Source: an uncultured Aquitalea sp.
GTDB lineage: Bacteria > Pseudomonadota > Gammaproteobacteria > Burkholderiales > Chromobacteriaceae
Direction of reading: 5' to 3'
DNA length: 64,000 nucleotides
Assembly (NCBI RefSeq): GCF_945957525.1
Contig: NZ_CAMFLA010000017.1
Coordinates: 1 to 64,000 of the forward strand
A model generated the notes under the pieces. It worked only from the letters and a program-made list of their open reading frames with translations. It was not told where the DNA came from and made no database searches. Of the stretch, positions 1,580 to 37,480 are shown in pieces (position 1 is the first letter of the stretch; each line of letters begins with the position of its first letter). The position numbers and the translations under genes were made by a program.

Positions 1580-4522
1580 ATGGATGTTGATGTCGATTTC
1601 TACCGAGAAAATGCCGTCTACCGGAGTTGGGCCGATGGCAGGTTGAACTTCGCGGTCGAGAGTAATTTCAACAACTTCACAGGATTTCGAAAACCGCAGC
1701 GGGCAGCAGCATTTGCGGTATTCTCTCACCTCGATTCCGATCCCGCAGTCCCGGCAACAGTGGTCATGCCGACAGGTACCGGGAAAACGGATACTATCTT
1801 TTCGATCATCATTGCGGGCCTTTTTCCCCGCACTTTGCTGATTGTCCCCTCCGATGCACTGCGCACACAGATTGGCGACCGCCTTGCCACGCTAGCGCGA
1901 CTTCGCGCGATAAACGCAATTTCCCCGGATATTCTCTCCCCTATTGTTCATCGCATCGATGGCCGTAATGCCACGCTGAACCTCGGTGCGATCGTTGGAG
2001 CTAACGTAACGATCGCAACGCCTGCTGCGCTCGCGCAGTTGAGCGATGATGAACTGAATGCATTCGCTGCTAACTACACGCATTTGATATTTGACGAGGC
2101 ACATCATGTAGCGGCAGTGACTTGGGGCCGAATTCGTAAAGCGTTTGAGCCAAAGCCGACGGTGTGTTTCACTGCTACTCCCTTCCGGCTCGACCAGCAG
2201 CGTCTCAACGGCAAAATCATCTTCAACTACTCTTTGAGTCAGGCGCAACGAGACAACTACTTTCAGAGAATCGACTTTTTCCCTGTCCGAGAATATGTGA
2301 CTAGCGAAATCGACCGAACGATCGCCGCCAAGGCAATCGAGCTCCTAGTCGCCGACGTCGAGGCAGGCTTCGACCACATCCTTATGGCCCGGTGTGCCAA
2401 GATCGCCAAGGCGAACCAGATTTTTAGGCTCTACTCCGAACTAGGTGCCGAGTTCGAACCGGTGGTCATCCACAGTAAAAGTAAGCACAAAGAGCGCGAT
2501 TTCGAGCAAATCAGGGCGAGGAAAAGTCGGATTGTCGTTTGTGTCGACATGTTCGGAGAAGGATTCGATCTGCCTGAGCTCAAGATCGCCGCGATCCATG
2601 ACCAACATCAGAGCCCAGCCGTCACTTTGCAGTTCATCGGTCGCCTCACTCGCACTGACTCTCGTCTGGGAACCGCGAAGTTTGTGGCAAACATTGCCAA
2701 CCAGCGCGCTGACAGCCCGATGAAACGTCTATACGAGGAAAGTGCAGATTGGAGCCTGATAATTCGCGAAGTTAGTACTGATCGTATCAGTCGCGAGCTA
2801 CAACGGCAGGAGTTTGAGGCGAGGTTCGAAGGCGACACGGATAGCGCCAAAATCGCGGCTCTCAACCCAGCCCCTAATATCAGTACTCTCGCGTACCGGC
2901 TTACCTCAGCAAATTGGCACCCCCAATCGGTCCGGCATCTGGGTAGTCCCAAAGAGGAGCTGGCGCTTCATTCAGTTAGCGATGATGGCACCATTGTCAT
3001 GGCGGTCACCAACGAAGTTGCCCCTGTAGCGTGGGCGAAGAGCGACTCAATCTATGGCTCGACGTGGCACCTGTATCTCGCCTATTACCGTCAGAGTGAT
3101 TCAACACTCTTTATCTCGTGTACGGGTGATGAGCGCCAAGCTGCGCGTTTTCAATCTCTTGTGGCCAAGACAGCGCGGCGAATTAACGGCGACGACGTTT
3201 TCAGAGTCATGCATGGCATCAACCGACTCAAGCTCCAAAACGTTGGGCTAAGTCGGTCCGGTCGAGATGTTCGCTTTACCATGCACGTCGGACAAGATGT
3301 TAACCGTGTCATGGATGACTTAGAGAATGGTCGCTCAATCAAGTCGAATATCTTTGGCGTTGGTCACGCAGCTGGCGAGAGTACAACGGCGGGGTGTTCG
3401 GCCAAGGGCAAGCTATGGAAGATGGACACTGGAGCCGTCAACGAGTGGGTGGAGTGGTGCGACATGGTTGCTTCGAAGATCAACGACTCCTCTATCGACA
3501 CTGCGGCGATCCTTCGTAACGTCATGCGTGCAGAGAAATTGCAGGGGCACTGGCCAGATGGGATATTTTTTGCAGATTGGCCAGACTCACTGGGTGTCGA
3601 GACTGAGAGCCGATGCACGATCTCCGTCGGAGGAACATCCTACTCGCTGTTAGATACCAAGCTTGGCCTGCCCGTGAAGGAGAGCGCAAATACGCTTGCC
3701 ATTCCACTTTCCGCAGTGACGCCTGCCGGCGAAGAGCTTGATTTACTGACAATCCGCGCCAGCCTTGAAGATGACGGATATCGGTACTCAACGGGGCAGG
3801 CAAGTATTCGCATCGGTAGCAAACAACACGACCTTCACGAGTACCTTGATCGCGAGCGTCTGCGCCTACTTCAAGCCGATGGCTCAATCGTCATCGGAAA
3901 TTATCGCTATTACACCCACGCGTCACTGAATGTGACTCTGCCGAGCAGCCTGCTTTCTAGCTGGGACTGGGGTACGACGAACATCCACAAAGAGTCCATG
4001 ACGCATGCCGCAGATTTTGACTCTGTGCAGGGCTTTACCTATCAGAAGATCTCTGAAGGCTACGACATTGTCTTCAACGATGACGGTGCCGGAGAAGTTG
4101 CTGACCTGGTTGCGGTTCGACATGCTGCAGATCACATCGTGGTGGATCTTTACCACTGCAAGTACTGTAGTAGCGGCCACCAGCCAGGTGCGCGTGTAAA
4201 TGATGCATATGTCGTTGCAGGACAAGCAAGCCGCTCTGCGAAATGGCTACACAAGGGGCCTGAGCTCTTCCAACGCCTGCTCAATCGGTATAGCAATGGT
4301 CAAGAGGGAGGTATGCAACGCTTGCTTAAAGGCACACCCCAGCAAATTGACTTGCTGAGGCTTAAGTCGCGCGATGTGGAAATGCGCATGGGCTTTTTCA
4401 TTGTGCAGCCGGCCATCTCTGTTCGCGAGGTTACCGATAGAGTGATGACAGTTCTTGGTACCAGCTATATGTATCTGAGGGACATTGCGAACGTGGACAT
4501 TCGTGTGATTGCAAGCCCATGA
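1580..4522 (+). CDS. DEAH-box superfamily II helicase with nuclease-like C-terminus, 980 aa
   Basis: The first ~370 residues form a superfamily II helicase core: Walker A MPTGTGKT (about 63-70), DEAH (172-175), TATPF (198-202) and the arginine-finger motif QFIGRLTR (351-358). This arrangement is typical of the Res subunit family of restriction enzymes and of stand-alone defence helicases. The middle is unrecognised. Near residues 834-862 a segment GEVADLVAV ... VDLYHCKY resembles a divergent restriction-like nuclease site, with His where Asp or Glu is usual. Translocation or unwinding of nucleic acid driven by ATP is inferred from the motifs. There is no methyltransferase gene nearby, so this is not a classical restriction-modification pair. 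It sits between a nuclease-like gene and an integron remnant, a setting that suggests phage or plasmid defence (inference). Confidence 0.8.
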   Translation: MDVDVDFYRENAVYRSWADGRLNFAVESNFNNFTGFRKPQRAAAFAVFSHLDSDPAVPATVVMPTGTGKTDTIFSIIIAGLFPRTLLIVPSDALRTQIGDRLATLARLRAINAISPDILSPIVHRIDGRNATLNLGAIVGANVTIATPAALAQLSDDELNAFAANYTHLIFDEAHHVAAVTWGRIRKAFEPKPTVCFTATPFRLDQQRLNGKIIFNYSLSQAQRDNYFQRIDFFPVREYVTSEIDRTIAAKAIELLVADVEAGFDHILMARCAKIAKANQIFRLYSELGAEFEPVVIHSKSKHKERDFEQIRARKSRIVVCVDMFGEGFDLPELKIAAIHDQHQSPAVTLQFIGRLTRTDSRLGTAKFVANIANQRADSPMKRLYEESADWSLIIREVSTDRISRELQRQEFEARFEGDTDSAKIAALNPAPNISTLAYRLTSANWHPQSVRHLGSPKEELALHSVSDDGTIVMAVTNEVAPVAWAKSDSIYGSTWHLYLAYYRQSDSTLFISCTGDERQAARFQSLVAKTARRINGDDVFRVMHGINRLKLQNVGLSRSGRDVRFTMHVGQDVNRVMDDLENGRSIKSNIFGVGHAAGESTTAGCSAKGKLWKMDTGAVNEWVEWCDMVASKINDSSIDTAAILRNVMRAEKLQGHWPDGIFFADWPDSLGVETESRCTISVGGTSYSLLDTKLGLPVKESANTLAIPLSAVTPAGEELDLLTIRASLEDDGYRYSTGQASIRIGSKQHDLHEYLDRERLRLLQADGSIVIGNYRYYTHASLNVTLPSSLLSSWDWGTTNIHKESMTHAADFDSVQGFTYQKISEGYDIVFNDDGAGEVADLVAVRHAADHIVVDLYHCKYCSSGHQPGARVNDAYVVAGQASRSAKWLHKGPELFQRLLNRYSNGQEGGMQRLLKGTPQQIDLLRLKSRDVEMRMGFFIVQPAISVREVTDRVMTVLGTSYMYLRDIANVDIRVIASP

Positions 4523-14892: not shown

Positions 14893-15336
14893 ATGCTAAC
14901 GCTTGGCAAGATCGACCACATTCATATCCGCGTCACCGACCTGCTGCAGGCGCAAGCCTGGTACCAACGGGTGCTCAATCTGGCGCCTGATGCGCGCTAC
15001 AAGCATTTGCAAAGCGGCGACCACGGCGTGGTGATGCTGGCCAATAGCAGCGGCAGTGTGCGGCTGGCCATTTCACAGGAAAGCAAGCTTGTGTGCGAGC
15101 CGGGCTCGGTGGCGTTTGGCGTCAGCGGGCAGGATTTTCTCGAGTGGATCGATCAGCTGGCTGGCGAGCGGGTGATTACCCGCGATGGCCAGAGCGTGGC
15201 GCGCGACTCCGCCCGCGATCATCAGTTTTTCTTCTCCATCAGCTTTGTCGACCCCTTCGGCAATCCTTTCGAGATTGTCAGCTACGACCACACCTGGCTG
15301 GCTGGCAAACTGAAACTCAACGGTCGCCACGGCTGA
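14893..15336 (+). CDS. VOC (glyoxalase/dioxygenase superfamily) protein, 147 aa
   Basis: The sequence shows the paired beta-alpha-beta-beta-beta units of the vicinal oxygen chelate fold: KIDHIHIRVTDLLQAQAWYQ at the start (His as a potential metal ligand) and DPFGNPFEIVSYDH near the end (Glu as a second ligand). Such proteins bind divalent metal and act as lyases, dioxygenases or resistance proteins; the substrate is not predictable here. The ATG at 14893 follows GAGGAAGCG, a good ribosome binding site. It is a single gene, with a terminator directly downstream and one copy of the dispersed 10-mer upstream. Confidence 0.8.
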   Translation: MLTLGKIDHIHIRVTDLLQAQAWYQRVLNLAPDARYKHLQSGDHGVVMLANSSGSVRLAISQESKLVCEPGSVAFGVSGQDFLEWIDQLAGERVITRDGQSVARDSARDHQFFFSISFVDPFGNPFEIVSYDHTWLAGKLKLNGRHG

Positions 15337-15381: not shown

Positions 15382-15558
15382 CATGCCTGAAAGCCTGAGT
15401 AGCGCTCGTTCTGGGCAATGCGGCGATGAACCTGTCCCTTCTGCCATCTATGCCAGATTCTTCGTTGCCGGTACTAGGAAACTGCCTTTATTTTCCGATC
15501 TCTGGCTCAGATCATCCTGATCAAGTCGGATATGTGCCAAACGGCGGAGGGAGTGAGC

Positions 15559-17574
15559 GTGAAAGAATTGATTACCCAATTCGGATTCAATGAACTGCAT
15601 GTGTTCATTCCTCTGTTTCTGATGCAGATGGGTGCCGCGCTGGGCGGCGTCGGCATGGTGCTGATCGTCAAGCAGTACCTTGGCATGCACGCGCGCTGGA
15701 ATGGCGTGTTGATTCCGCTGGCTTTCGCCGTGGTCTACTTTATCAACTTCCAGTTACTGGTTTCCCTGCTGGAGGGTCTGCATCGTTATAACGAAACGGC
15801 CCAGGCTGGCGGGGGCGGGCTGGACCGGCAGTTGGCGCAGGCTGCTTTGCGCGTGAGCTTGGTAACCGATTTCATGGTGCTGGCGGCCTATCTGGGTGGT
15901 TGGCGCGGCAGCGCCTTGTTTTTGCTGGCGGTGCTGCCTGTCCGTTATGACTGGGTCAGTACGGAAAATTTCTGGGCTTCCACGGCGGATCTGCTGGTGC
16001 AGTGTGCTGCGGGTTTGCTGCTGCGGCGCTACGGCCAACGCCTGCACGAAGTGTTGTCCTTGCAGGTGCTTGCCGTGTGGACTGTGCGCATGCTGGCATC
16101 GCTGCTGGGCATCCTGCTGGCAATGCTTCTGCTGCCGGATGCGGCCATTCCCTTCAGCCATGTGGCGGTAGCCAGAGCCTATGTGTTTCCTTTCTCGCTG
16201 TTTCTCATCGCCGTCATCCTGGTGATGCTGCGGCTGGATGCCCGGGTATACGATCGGGTGCGGCTGCGCAACGGCGAACTGATGACGGATCTGGATACCG
16301 GCATCCCCAATCGGCGCGCGCTCAGTCTGTATCTGCAAAAAAAACAAAGCAGCCGCGACGGCAAGTTGCTGGTGTGGGAAGTAGCCAATACCGCTTACCT
16401 GTTGGAGTGCATGGGCGTGGAGGAGCTGAGTGTGTCCTGGAAGCGGGCCGTGCGGCTGATGGCCCGGCGCGCCAAACGGGAGTGGGGCGTCGATATTGCC
16501 AAGGTTTTCCTGTTTGGCGATTTCAGTATTGCGCTGTGGGCTTCCGGCGATGCGGGCAACAAGCGCGAGGAGGAGCTGGCTGGCTGGCTCACGCGTTGCG
16601 CCGATGAGGTGTTTGCCGGTTTGTACGTGGTGGGCAAGGCCGTGGTGTTCCAGCCGGCGGTGATCGAGCGCTTTTCCACCGGGCAGTTGCCCTACCGCGA
16701 GATTGCGCTGGCGCTCAATTCGATTCGCGGCGGGGTGGTGCACCTCGGCATGGACTTCTTCGAAGCGGGCGGCTTGCACCGGAATATCCATCAGCAGATT
16801 GAGCGCTGGAAGAGTGGCGAGGCGGTGAAAATGGCTTTCCAGCCCAAAATCCACCTGCGCACAGGCAAAATCATCGGCGCCGAAGCTTTGCTGCGGCCTA
16901 GCGATGGCGGCGGGCTGCCGCTTTCGCCGCTGGAAGTGGTGAATCATGCGCGGCGTACTGGTTGGCTGCCGGAGCTGGAGTGGCGCACGATCGAGCATGT
17001 GATCCGGTGGATCCAGTCCTGGCCGGATCGCCCCGAGCGCTTTGCCGTGGCGGTGAACCTGTCCGGTGACTCCCTGTGCGAACCGGGTTTCGGCCAACGT
17101 TTACTGACGCTGATGCAAAGCGAGCGGATCAGCCCGCAGGCCTTGAAGGTGGAGGTGCTGGAGTGGTCGGACCGGATACTTGAACCCACGGCCAGCGGCA
17201 ATATCCGGTTGCTGATAGAGCATGGTGTGCGGATGTCGCTGGATGATCTGGGCGCGGGTTACTCCTCCCTGTCTTTATTGTCTCGCTACGACTTTTTCGA
17301 AGTGAAGATAGATATGTCGCTGGTAAAGGAAATCAGCAGCAATCGCTCGGCGGCCATTGTGGAAATGGCGGTGAAGGCGGCGCATGAGTGCGGTGCCAGC
17401 GTGGTGGCCGAAGGGGTGGAAACGCCGGAAATGGCGCGCCAGTTGCTGGATATGGGCGTGGACTGCGGTCAGGGATGGCTGTTTTCGCGCGCAGTGTCCT
17501 TCAGCGAGTTGCGGCAAATGGTATCGACAGAGCGAGTCAGCTTTGCCATGCCGGCGAGTGTCGTTGAGGGGTGA
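15559..17574 (+). CDS. membrane-bound EAL-domain c-di-GMP phosphodiesterase with degenerate GGDEF, 671 aa
   Basis: The GTG at 15559 is chosen because GGAGGG lies 7-8 bases upstream; an in-frame ATG at 15532 lacks one. About 230 residues with six or seven hydrophobic segments form a membrane sensor. A GGDEF-like region follows (DTGIPNRRAL), but its active site reads FGDFS, so cyclase activity should be lost. The EAL domain keeps EALLRP, AVNLSGDSL, EVLEWSDR, DDLGAGYSS, the KID lysine and EGVETPE, so hydrolysis of c-di-GMP to pGpG is likely. It would lower c-di-GMP in response to an unknown membrane cue. It is a single gene followed by a terminator-like hairpin. Confidence 0.88.
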   Translation: MKELITQFGFNELHVFIPLFLMQMGAALGGVGMVLIVKQYLGMHARWNGVLIPLAFAVVYFINFQLLVSLLEGLHRYNETAQAGGGGLDRQLAQAALRVSLVTDFMVLAAYLGGWRGSALFLLAVLPVRYDWVSTENFWASTADLLVQCAAGLLLRRYGQRLHEVLSLQVLAVWTVRMLASLLGILLAMLLLPDAAIPFSHVAVARAYVFPFSLFLIAVILVMLRLDARVYDRVRLRNGELMTDLDTGIPNRRALSLYLQKKQSSRDGKLLVWEVANTAYLLECMGVEELSVSWKRAVRLMARRAKREWGVDIAKVFLFGDFSIALWASGDAGNKREEELAGWLTRCADEVFAGLYVVGKAVVFQPAVIERFSTGQLPYREIALALNSIRGGVVHLGMDFFEAGGLHRNIHQQIERWKSGEAVKMAFQPKIHLRTGKIIGAEALLRPSDGGGLPLSPLEVVNHARRTGWLPELEWRTIEHVIRWIQSWPDRPERFAVAVNLSGDSLCEPGFGQRLLTLMQSERISPQALKVEVLEWSDRILEPTASGNIRLLIEHGVRMSLDDLGAGYSSLSLLSRYDFFEVKIDMSLVKEISSNRSAAIVEMAVKAAHECGASVVAEGVETPEMARQLLDMGVDCGQGWLFSRAVSFSELRQMVSTERVSFAMPASVVEG

Positions 17575-17584
17575 CGAAAAAAAG

Positions 17585-17598
17585 GCTGATATATCAGC
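17585..17598. other. perfect 14-bp palindrome
   Basis: GCTGATATATCAGC lies 10 bases past the EAL gene and about 105 bases upstream of a sigma-54 promoter. A perfect palindrome at that distance would suit a dimeric activator site, but the family of the regulator is unknown. Confidence 0.35.
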
Positions 17599-17624
17599 GG
17601 GTTGACGGTCTTATGCGAATGGTT

Positions 17625-17646
17625 GTCGCCCTTGGGCGACGGTTTT
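17625..17646 (+). terminator. terminator-like hairpin after the EAL gene
   Basis: GTCGCCC / GGGCGAC arms followed by GGTTTT, about 50 bases after the stop codon. Confidence 0.65.
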
Positions 17647-17704
17647 GGCGTGTTTTGACTAAGGCGATATTGAAAAGTCTTTATTTTTCAGTTGCTTAAA
17701 AGGC

Positions 17705-17719
17705 TGGCACGGTGATTGC
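17705..17719 (+). promoter_or_regulatory. sigma-54 (RpoN) promoter
   Basis: TGGCACGGTGATTGC matches the -24/-12 consensus TGGCAC-N5-TTGC exactly, with GG at 17706-17707 and GC at 17718-17719 correctly spaced. Transcription would start near 17731, about 38 bases before the ATG at 17769. Such promoters need an enhancer-binding activator and ATP. Confidence 0.85.
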
Positions 17720-17768
17720 AATACAGTCAGCGCTACTTGTTCAACCAAGCTATAAGGATGACTCAACA

Positions 17769-18026
17769 ATGACCCATAACACGATGCTGATCGCTGCTGC
17801 TTTTGCCTCCATCACTGCTTTTGCCGCTGTTGCCGCTGAACCCGCTCCGGCCAGCGCGCCGCAGGTTGAAAGCAGTGCCCCGCAAATGGGCCAGGCCGCA
17901 CAGACTGAAGAGGCCAGCGCGCCGCAGGTAGGTCAGGCCGCTCAGGCTGAGGAAGCCAGCGCGCCGCAGGTAGGTCAGGCTGCTCAGGCTCAGGAAGCCA
18001 GCGCGCCGACTACCGAGCAGAAGTAA
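17769..18026 (+). CDS. small exported Ala/Gln-rich repeat protein, 85 aa
   Basis: The ATG at 17769 is preceded by TATAAGGATGAC (AAGGA ribosome binding site). Residues 1-22 look like a signal peptide (hydrophobic core AAAFASITAFAAVAA ending in A-x-A). The mature part is about 60 residues built of three near-identical units of the type EASAPQVGQAAQA, acidic and without cysteine. No enzyme or binding motif is visible. A low-complexity exported peptide controlled by a sigma-54 promoter suggests a conditionally made surface or periplasmic product. Function unknown. Confidence 0.8.
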   Translation: MTHNTMLIAAAFASITAFAAVAAEPAPASAPQVESSAPQMGQAAQTEEASAPQVGQAAQAEEASAPQVGQAAQAQEASAPTTEQK

Positions 18027-18173
18027 GCGTGTGATATCAGGCGGGGCCGTCCGGCCTTGCCTGATTGCTGCGCAAAGACTTGCTACCAACCCCCTGATCC
18101 TGCGTTGCAACACCTTGTCGTACTCCGTGCGCTGCTTGCGTTTCAGGCTCACCAGGAGGTTTGGCAAGCGGCT

Positions 18174-19073
18174 CTAGTCAGTCTGTACGCATTCCTCATT
18201 CAAATGGCTGAGGAAACCCGCCACCAAGGGCGATATCTCGCCTTCTCGCGTGGCGATGCCCATCGCCAAGTAGGCCCCCTCGTCCATCAGGGGAATATAT
18301 TTCACCCCCTCGATTTTCACGCACTCCAGCGGAGACGGCAGGATGGCGATGCCCAGTCCGGCCGCCACCAGTCCAATCTGGGTAATGGCCTCTCCCGCTT
18401 CCTGATTGATCTTCGGCTCAAAGCCGTTGTCGGCGCACAGCTGACGGATCACGCTGTGCAGCCCGGTGCCGGCGCTGCGCGGATAGCACACCAGACCTTC
18501 GTTCTTGAGCTGCCCCAGCGACAAGCTGCGCTCGCCGGCGAGCGGATGGCGCTGGTTGATCACCACTTGCAACGGATCGCGGCGCAATTCGCGCACCAGG
18601 ATGTGCGCGGCGGGCGACAGGCCGTTGAAGCGCACAAAACCAACGTCGATTTCTTCTTGTTGCAGGGCAAGAAACTGATCGGTGGTGAACATCTCGCGCA
18701 GTATCAGCCGCACTGCCGGATAGTGCTGGCGATAGCGGTGCAGGGTACCGGGCAATACCGGGGTAAGCGGCAGGGAGGAGGTGAAACCGATGCGCAGCTC
18801 GCCCACTTCGCCGCGAGCGGCGCGGCGGGCCTGCTCCGCGGCCTCTTCGGTATCGGCGAGAATGCGGCGCGCGCGAATCAGAAACTGCTTGCCCGCTTCG
18901 GTCAGCAAAACCTTGCGGCGATGGCGCTCGAACAGGCGGACACCCAGCTCCGCCTCCAGCGCCTGTATCTGTTGCGACAGCGGCGGCTGGGCGATGTGCA
19001 GCCGCTCCGCCGCGCGGGTGAAGTGCAGTTCTTCGGCGACTGCAACGAAATAACGCAGATGACGCAGTTCCAT
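18174..19073 (-). CDS. LysR-family transcriptional regulator, 299 aa
   Basis: An N-terminal winged helix-turn-helix (MELRHLRYFVAVAEELHFTR, then AERLHIAQPPLSQQIQALE) is followed by a two-lobed ligand-binding domain (LRIGFTSS..., VFV/GLGIAILP), with normal family length. It resembles the BenM/CatR-like branch that starts MELRHLRYF. It is divergent from an MFS transporter gene (start 19160), which is its most likely target. The 86-base gap contains AT-rich dyads such as ATATGTTTTTGATAT compatible with a T-N11-A site. The ligand is unknown. Confidence 0.9.
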   Translation of the reverse strand: MELRHLRYFVAVAEELHFTRAAERLHIAQPPLSQQIQALEAELGVRLFERHRRKVLLTEAGKQFLIRARRILADTEEAAEQARRAARGEVGELRIGFTSSLPLTPVLPGTLHRYRQHYPAVRLILREMFTTDQFLALQQEEIDVGFVRFNGLSPAAHILVRELRRDPLQVVINQRHPLAGERSLSLGQLKNEGLVCYPRSAGTGLHSVIRQLCADNGFEPKINQEAGEAITQIGLVAAGLGIAILPSPLECVKIEGVKYIPLMDEGAYLAMGIATREGEISPLVAGFLSHLNEECVQTD

Positions 19074-35985: not shown

Positions 35986-37371
35986 ATGCACGGCCACTTT
36001 GATTCCCAAAGGAAATACACGCTTGCGCACGATCGGCGCTTTGCCGCCTCGGCGGATCATCTGCTGTTCGAAGGGGTGGATCTCACTCTGCTGCCGGCAC
36101 GGTTCGGCTCGCCGCTCTATGTGTATTCCGCGCCGGAAATCCGTCGCAACATCGCGGAAATCCGCGACGCCTTTGCCGAGCACCCGGCCACCCGTATTTG
36201 CTACGCCTCCAAAGCCTGTTCCTTGCTGGCGGTGCTGCAGGTGGTGCGGGAAACCGGCATCAGCATCGAAGCCAACTCCGCCAATGAAATTCGCCGCTGC
36301 CTGGCCGCCGGGTTTCGCGGGGACCAGATCGTCTACAACGGCGTGGTGAAGCGCGAGGAAGAGTTGGAGTTCGCCATCGCCCAGCAATTGCACGCCATCA
36401 ATGTGGACAGCGAAGAGGAACTGGCGGCCATCGATCGCATCAGCCGCCGGCTGGGGCAGACGGCTCGGGTGTGCATCCGTGTGGAGCCCAACGTCAAGGC
36501 CGATACCCACGAGGGGCTGATGACGGCCTATCGGGCCAAATCCGGCATCGATCTGGCCGACGCCGAGCGCGTGTGCCGCGCGGTGCTGGATATGCCCAGG
36601 GTGACGTTGTGCGGTTTGCACATGCATGTGGGCGATCAGGTGCCGGACGCCCAGCCCTTTGGCTTGGCCACCCGCGTGCTGGTCAATGCCGCGCGCGATC
36701 TGGAAACCGCGCTGGGCATCCGTTTCAGCATGATCAACGTGGGCGGCGGCATTCCCACGCCGTATCGCTACGCCACCGATCAGGGCGGCGGCGGGCCGGA
36801 GAACATGCAGCCACAGATCGGCGCAGCGGAATTCGCCCGCGCGGTGTTGGCCGAAGTGCGCGCCTGGCGCACCGATATCGAGGTGTGCATCGAACCTGGG
36901 CGCAAGGTGGTAGGCAGCGCGGCAGTGCTGCTCACTACGCTGGTCAACGGCAAAAGCAAAACCTTGCACGCAGAAGACGGCTCGGTGGAAGGACAGGTTC
37001 TCTGGCGTATGCTGGACGCCGGCTTCAATGCCGTGCCGGATTACAAAGACTGGTATTTCTATGTGTACAACGCCAGCCGCGCCACGCAGGTTCACGATCT
37101 GGCGGTGAAGCTGGGCGGCCCCTTGTGTGACGGCGGCGACTGGTTCCGCCATGGCCCGCTGGGCGAGCAATTCTTGTTGCCGGCAGACAGCGCGCCCGGC
37201 GATGTGGTCGTCTTCCTCGATGTGGGCGCCTACCAGTTGGAAAACCAGACCAATTACAACGCGCAGCCGCGTTCGGCCGCCGTGCTGATCGACCGTGCCG
37301 GGCAGTACCGGCTGGTGCGCCGGCAGGAGCGCTTCGACGACATGCTGAGGCTGGAGCGCGATCTGTCCTGA
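35986..37371 (+). CDS. PLP-dependent decarboxylase, diaminopimelate/ornithine decarboxylase fold, 461 aa
   Basis: A fold-type III PLP enzyme. YASKAC near residue 76 holds the Schiff-base lysine, HMHVGDQ and NVGGGIPTPY bind the cofactor phosphate, EPGRKVVG follows, and the late CDGGDWF resembles the C-x-x-x-D substrate-binding motif contributed across the dimer interface. It is longer than typical LysA because of an insert (about residues 260-275, GGGGPENMQP). The start ATG follows ACGGAGCAGAC. Its substrate may be lysine, ornithine, arginine or a related amino acid, given the adjacent lysine/arginine/ornithine-type binding protein; this remains inference. Confidence 0.85.
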   Translation: MHGHFDSQRKYTLAHDRRFAASADHLLFEGVDLTLLPARFGSPLYVYSAPEIRRNIAEIRDAFAEHPATRICYASKACSLLAVLQVVRETGISIEANSANEIRRCLAAGFRGDQIVYNGVVKREEELEFAIAQQLHAINVDSEEELAAIDRISRRLGQTARVCIRVEPNVKADTHEGLMTAYRAKSGIDLADAERVCRAVLDMPRVTLCGLHMHVGDQVPDAQPFGLATRVLVNAARDLETALGIRFSMINVGGGIPTPYRYATDQGGGGPENMQPQIGAAEFARAVLAEVRAWRTDIEVCIEPGRKVVGSAAVLLTTLVNGKSKTLHAEDGSVEGQVLWRMLDAGFNAVPDYKDWYFYVYNASRATQVHDLAVKLGGPLCDGGDWFRHGPLGEQFLLPADSAPGDVVVFLDVGAYQLENQTNYNAQPRSAAVLIDRAGQYRLVRRQERFDDMLRLERDLS

Positions 37372-37480
37372 CGCCCTGCGCCGTCAGACAAACCGGCCGG
37401 AACGGCCCCGACCGGTCATGGCGCGCGCAGCATGGCGCGCCGCATACCAAGGCCGATTCTGTCACACCGGAGAAATCGAG

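Follow-up and report, generated by a model that had tools for sequence, protein, structure and literature searches.

A predicted GlrR-type sigma-54 promoter upstream of a gene for a putatively exported repeat peptide in an uncultured Aquitalea sp.

Comparison of an uncultured Aquitalea sp. with nine other genomes of its genus suggests that the gene for a small, presumably exported repeat peptide (hereafter P85) is very probably a target of the envelope-sensing system composed of the kinase GlrK, a lipoprotein, and the regulator GlrR (also called QseE/QseG/QseF). The comparison reveals the parts of the P85 promoter, their conserved layout, a link between its upstream boxes and the glrR gene, and a companion target with the same kind of promoter, so that the predicted regulation is well supported by comparison. 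Most likely, P85 would be produced under envelope surveillance and not under nitrogen or motility control. A role in nitrogen status or motility, raised in an earlier sequence-only reading, is unsupported; regulator and companion target alike suggest an envelope function. The consensus of NtrC boxes is TGCACC-N5-GGTGCA; none was seen on reading positions 17559-17705, where GlrR-type boxes are found instead. Positions refer to the window, namely the whole 64-kb stretch of DNA that was analysed (Table 1).

Table 1. Predicted features of the P85 locus, in window coordinates.
Feature	Position	Strand	Basis or remark
Distal GlrR-type box TGTCGTTGAGGGGTGACG, weak	17559..17576	+	PWM score 7.7; register shared with nine relatives
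14-bp palindrome GCTGATATATCAGC	17585..17598		Probably incidental; chance frequency, no palindrome in relatives
IHF-like site TATCAGCGGGTTG, one mismatch to WATCAANNNNTTR	17592..17604	+	Constant offset between the boxes in 10/10 promoters
Proximal GlrR-type box TGTCGCCCTTGGGCGACG, predicted upstream activating sequence	17624..17641	+	Top PWM score of the window; aligned box in nine relatives
Sigma-54 -24/-12 element TGGCACGGTGATTGC	17705..17719	+	Sole exact match in the window; kept in nine relatives
Shine-Dalgarno-like AAGGA	17754..17758	+	Sequence; 10 nt 5' of the ATG
P85, predicted 85-aa exported repeat peptide	17769..18026 (ATG to stop)	+	Signal-like N-terminus, Ala/Pro/Gln/Glu-rich region, three 14-aa repeats
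13-bp hairpin 3' of the stop codon, candidate transcript end, no U-tract	18036..18065	+	Fold z-score -5.1; 0/200 shuffles as stable

Promoter elements upstream of P85

The element TGGCACGGTGATTGC agrees with the sigma-54 consensus (TGGCAC/T-N5-TTGC, with GG and GC 10 bp apart) and lies 50 bp upstream of the 85-codon open reading frame, which bears out the earlier description of a correctly placed consensus -24/-12 element. When one mismatch to TGGCAC-N5-TTGC is allowed, 11 more matches appear within the window, which is the chance level, and the 4.05-Mb genome contains 15 exact sites versus four in a reversed control, several of them intragenic, so that the hexamers by themselves are not decisive. 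The genome has a gene for sigma-54 (RpoN), and all nine relatives conserve the element at the orthologous position as TGGCAT-N5-TTGC. Sigma-54 control of the putative exported repeat peptide, which the sequence-only reading had put forward, is well supported by this conservation of the promoter.

Upstream of the -24/-12 element lie two boxes of the GlrR/QseF type, for which both a TGTCN10GACA consensus (PMC8745638) and an alternative, IHF-assisted TGTN12ACA consensus (PMC6075780) have been published. The proximal box reads TGTC-N10-GACG and deviates from TGTC-N10-GACA in its last base. Scored with a position weight matrix (PWM) from the building of which this genome was excluded, it reaches 18.2 (runner-up in the window, 12.3), a value equalled by one site in 2 Mb of Markov random sequence. 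The E. coli glmY promoter contains boxes of like kind (TGTCTGTAAATCACGACA, TGTCGCTTTCTGGCGACA, and TGTCTCTTTTTAGCGACA); the proximal box scores above the glmY boxes at 16.3 and 11.7 and below the one at 21.2. Sites as good as the distal box number about 77 in 2 Mb of random sequence. The two boxes are placed at -81 and -146 with respect to the -24 element, 65 bp apart, and those of the nine relatives at -82/-80 and -147/-145; the boxes of all nine are inverted repeats that follow TGTCG-N8-CGACA, a few of them departing from it at one or two positions. The IHF-like site between the boxes has a chance expectation of 0.03 per spacer. Both this site and the distal box are degenerate in the window, from which a second IHF-like site, present in the relatives between the proximal box and the -24 element, is missing.

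The two GlrR/QseF-type boxes are, on this comparison, the likely activator sites. That role had previously been proposed for a perfect 14-bp palindrome, which is present but is rejected as the activator site: the window contains seven such palindromes versus 4.65 +/- 1.6 in shuffled sequences, and the relatives do not preserve its palindromic symmetry. Its right half overlaps the conserved IHF-like site. Minus-strand reading, in which CTTTTTTT comes after the palindrome, gives it the look of a weak terminator.

GlrR and its companion target

A strict pattern combining box and sigma-54 element occurs at two places in the genome and nowhere in its reversed control. Besides the P85 promoter, it picks out a promoter on contig 13 located directly 3' of an enhancer-binding protein gene, glrR, the last gene of a kinase-lipoprotein-regulator operon. 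Over the ten genomes of the genus, the same two-part pattern yields 23 matches versus 9 in the reversed control and is therefore insufficient alone, so that the case rests on conserved spacing, weight matrix, glrR link, and recognition helix together. As a relaxed box search of the P85-bearing genome gave seven matches versus five in the control, we do not claim further targets. The best model for the regulator is the NCBIfam GlrR model, at 586 bits, which is under its curated cutoff of 763 (next model, 432). The protein shares 54% identity with E. coli GlrR and carries a matching DNA-binding helix (RNRTEFYRLL, compared with RNRTEFYKLL in E. coli) that is absent from the six other enhancer-binding proteins of this genome that were aligned. 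Control of the sigma-54 promoter by another enhancer-binding protein, of the NtrC, flagellar, or PilR type, seems improbable: the genome does encode 11 full-length sigma-54 activator domains, but the upstream boxes are of the GlrR type, the sole other strict match in the genome adjoins glrR, and the six activators aligned, out of the ten others, have different recognition helices. PilR had been considered as the regulator and was dropped once the motif search gave the glrR-adjacent copy. Behind glrR, the distal box forms part of a terminator-like hairpin with a T-run after it (CCCCTGTCGTTAAGCAGCGACAGGGGTTTTT), both on contig 13 (L115, ~3470-3510) and in relatives (L107, L110, and L112), so that one sequence may act both as the terminator of glrR and as an activator box.

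The glrR-adjacent promoter precedes a gene for an exported BON-domain protein (Pfam PF04972). Two other genera of the family (g7 and g8) show the same order of glrR, two boxes, sigma-54 element, and exported BON-type protein, the BON domain being confirmed by Pfam in the protein of this genome and in two g7 examples. OsmY is a known exported protein with this domain. P85 shares its kind of promoter with these proteins but, unlike them, has no BON domain. In several g7 genomes (L116, L117, L118, and L125), the exported protein under the GlrR-box/sigma-54 promoter has many DASAP...QAQ repeats ahead of its BON domain; these repeats are near-identical, 17-18 residues long, and differ in number among species. 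Homology of P85 to these fused repeat-plus-BON proteins is not claimed, the likeness being one of composition and matched by shuffled controls. A tentative and rather unlikely generalization would be that the GlrR output in this family consists of an exported, disordered Ala/Pro/Gln repeat peptide plus a BON domain, fused in g7 and divided between two co-regulated genes in the genus studied here. On this view, the repeat peptide may work on the outer membrane from within the periplasm, or may feed back on the GlrK sensor.

Some genes behind other promoters were identified by eye. On contig 13 of G011 (L135/L233), a gene for an OsmY-like exported protein with two BON domains lies behind a consensus sigma-54 site and boxes at -156 and -81, with no glrR gene within the 5.5 kb covered. 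A Propionivibrio and a gammaproteobacterial MAG supply two further loci, both on the minus strand (L137, 6516; L139, 6619) and close to glrR-like genes, where GlrR-type boxes occur before TGGCACGGATATCGC and a bactofilin-like gene. In the P85-bearing genome itself, a consensus sigma-54 site on contig 19 (~36305-37475; L014, L100) precedes a dimethylargininase-like gene that adjoins another enhancer-binding protein gene.

The peptide and its genomic context

The earlier count of an 85-residue protein with three repeats was accurate: the open reading frame contains three 42-nt units, starting at 17868, 17910, and 17952, which encode the 14-residue sequences ESSAPQMGQAAQTE, EASAPQVGQAAQAE, and EASAPQVGQAAQAQ. 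Differences between the repeats fall mainly in third codon positions (8/12, 8/13, and 2/3), so that the reading frame looks selected and its translation is supported. The signal peptide also described for this protein is Sec-like in its overall N-terminus (MLIAAAFASITAFAAVAA, with the cut before EP), whereas its n-region lacks Lys or Arg. P85 matches no family in Pfam or NCBIfam.

All nine other genomes of the genus carry, beside a glyoxalase gene, a gene for an exported Ala/Pro/Gln-rich peptide of 65-68 residues that starts 39-40 nt past the TGGCAT-N5-TTGC element. A codon-by-codon comparison covering seven of these nine relatives counted 58, 50, and 254 differences at codon positions 1, 2, and 3, a bias indicating that the peptides are real proteins. 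All ten genomes retain the upstream glyoxalase gene (14893-15336), and all except the incomplete G009 retain the LysR gene located downstream on the minus strand (18174-19073). Sequence homology between P85 and the relatives' peptides was not significant, 391 of 2000 composition shuffles scoring equally well; as this similarity is no better than composition, P85 orthology rests on position and promoter. Protein-level searches with P85 found no relative in the genome contigs searched and, among 101 genomes, a single match (G028) that was low-complexity, contained an internal stop, and was not considered homology. The glyoxalase and peptide genes of the window are not adjacent but have an EAL-domain gene (15532-17574) between them; the N-terminal half of the EAL-domain product appears membrane-bound, the stop codon of this gene falls inside the distal GlrR box, and the gene is absent from the other genomes searched at E <= 1e-60.

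The relevant product could in principle be an RNA, like GlmY in the case of E. coli GlrR, with the open reading frame being incidental. E. coli GlrR does activate small-RNA genes (PMC6075780), and the predicted P85 transcript is short and would end in a strong hairpin. Against an RNA product stand the third-position bias among relatives (254 of 362 differences) and among the repeats, the conservation of signal-like N-termini and Shine-Dalgarno-like sequences, and the lack of any Rfam family at gathering score, the one weak Rfam match being downstream, on the opposite strand, and at chance level; we consider an RNA product very improbable. Least probable of all is that the sigma-54 site and boxes are coincidental or degenerate matches and that another promoter is used: exact sigma-54 sites are also found inside genes of this genome and the strict pattern has chance matches in the relatives, but the four promoter elements keep their order, with spacing within 2 bp, across ten genomes, and a consensus scan found no sigma-70-like site.

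Proposed mechanism and comparison with the E. coli system

In the mechanism that we propose, an envelope signal would activate the GlrK-like kinase, and phosphorylated GlrR would bind the two boxes, whose centres lie ~98 and ~163 bp before the predicted transcription start (~17731). IHF would probably help by bending the DNA between them, such help having been reported for the E. coli system (PMC6075780), and GlrR would then drive open-complex formation by the sigma-54 RNA polymerase at 17705-17719. The 85-aa precursor would be exported by the Sec pathway and cut to ~62 residues, leaving in the periplasm a repeat peptide that is acidic, rich in Ala/Pro/Gln/Glu, and probably disordered. Made alongside the exported BON-domain protein, P85 probably helps to keep the envelope intact, a role that we infer from what the regulator is known to do in enterics and from the companion BON protein.

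This predicted circuit resembles the E. coli glmY promoter and the GlrK-QseG-GlrR (QseE/G/F) system in its TGTC-N10-GACA boxes, IHF-like site(s), and TGGCA-type sigma-54 element, as well as in the kinase-lipoprotein-regulator operon order and the near-identical recognition helix of GlrR. By contrast, E. coli QseG has no detectable similarity to the lipoprotein encoded with the kinase and regulator here, and the known targets of E. coli GlrR are the small RNA GlmY and rpoE, whereas the targets predicted here encode two exported proteins, a repeat peptide and a BON protein. GlrR/QseF has been described, in the literature that we found, in enteric bacteria, with the small RNAs glmY/glmZ and rpoE as reported sigma-54 targets. 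BON proteins in several genera, together with a fast-evolving small peptide in one genus, would represent a different, directly exported GlrR output in an apparently betaproteobacterial family. The exact boxes given here are open to mutation, and the role of GlrR outside enterics becomes testable.
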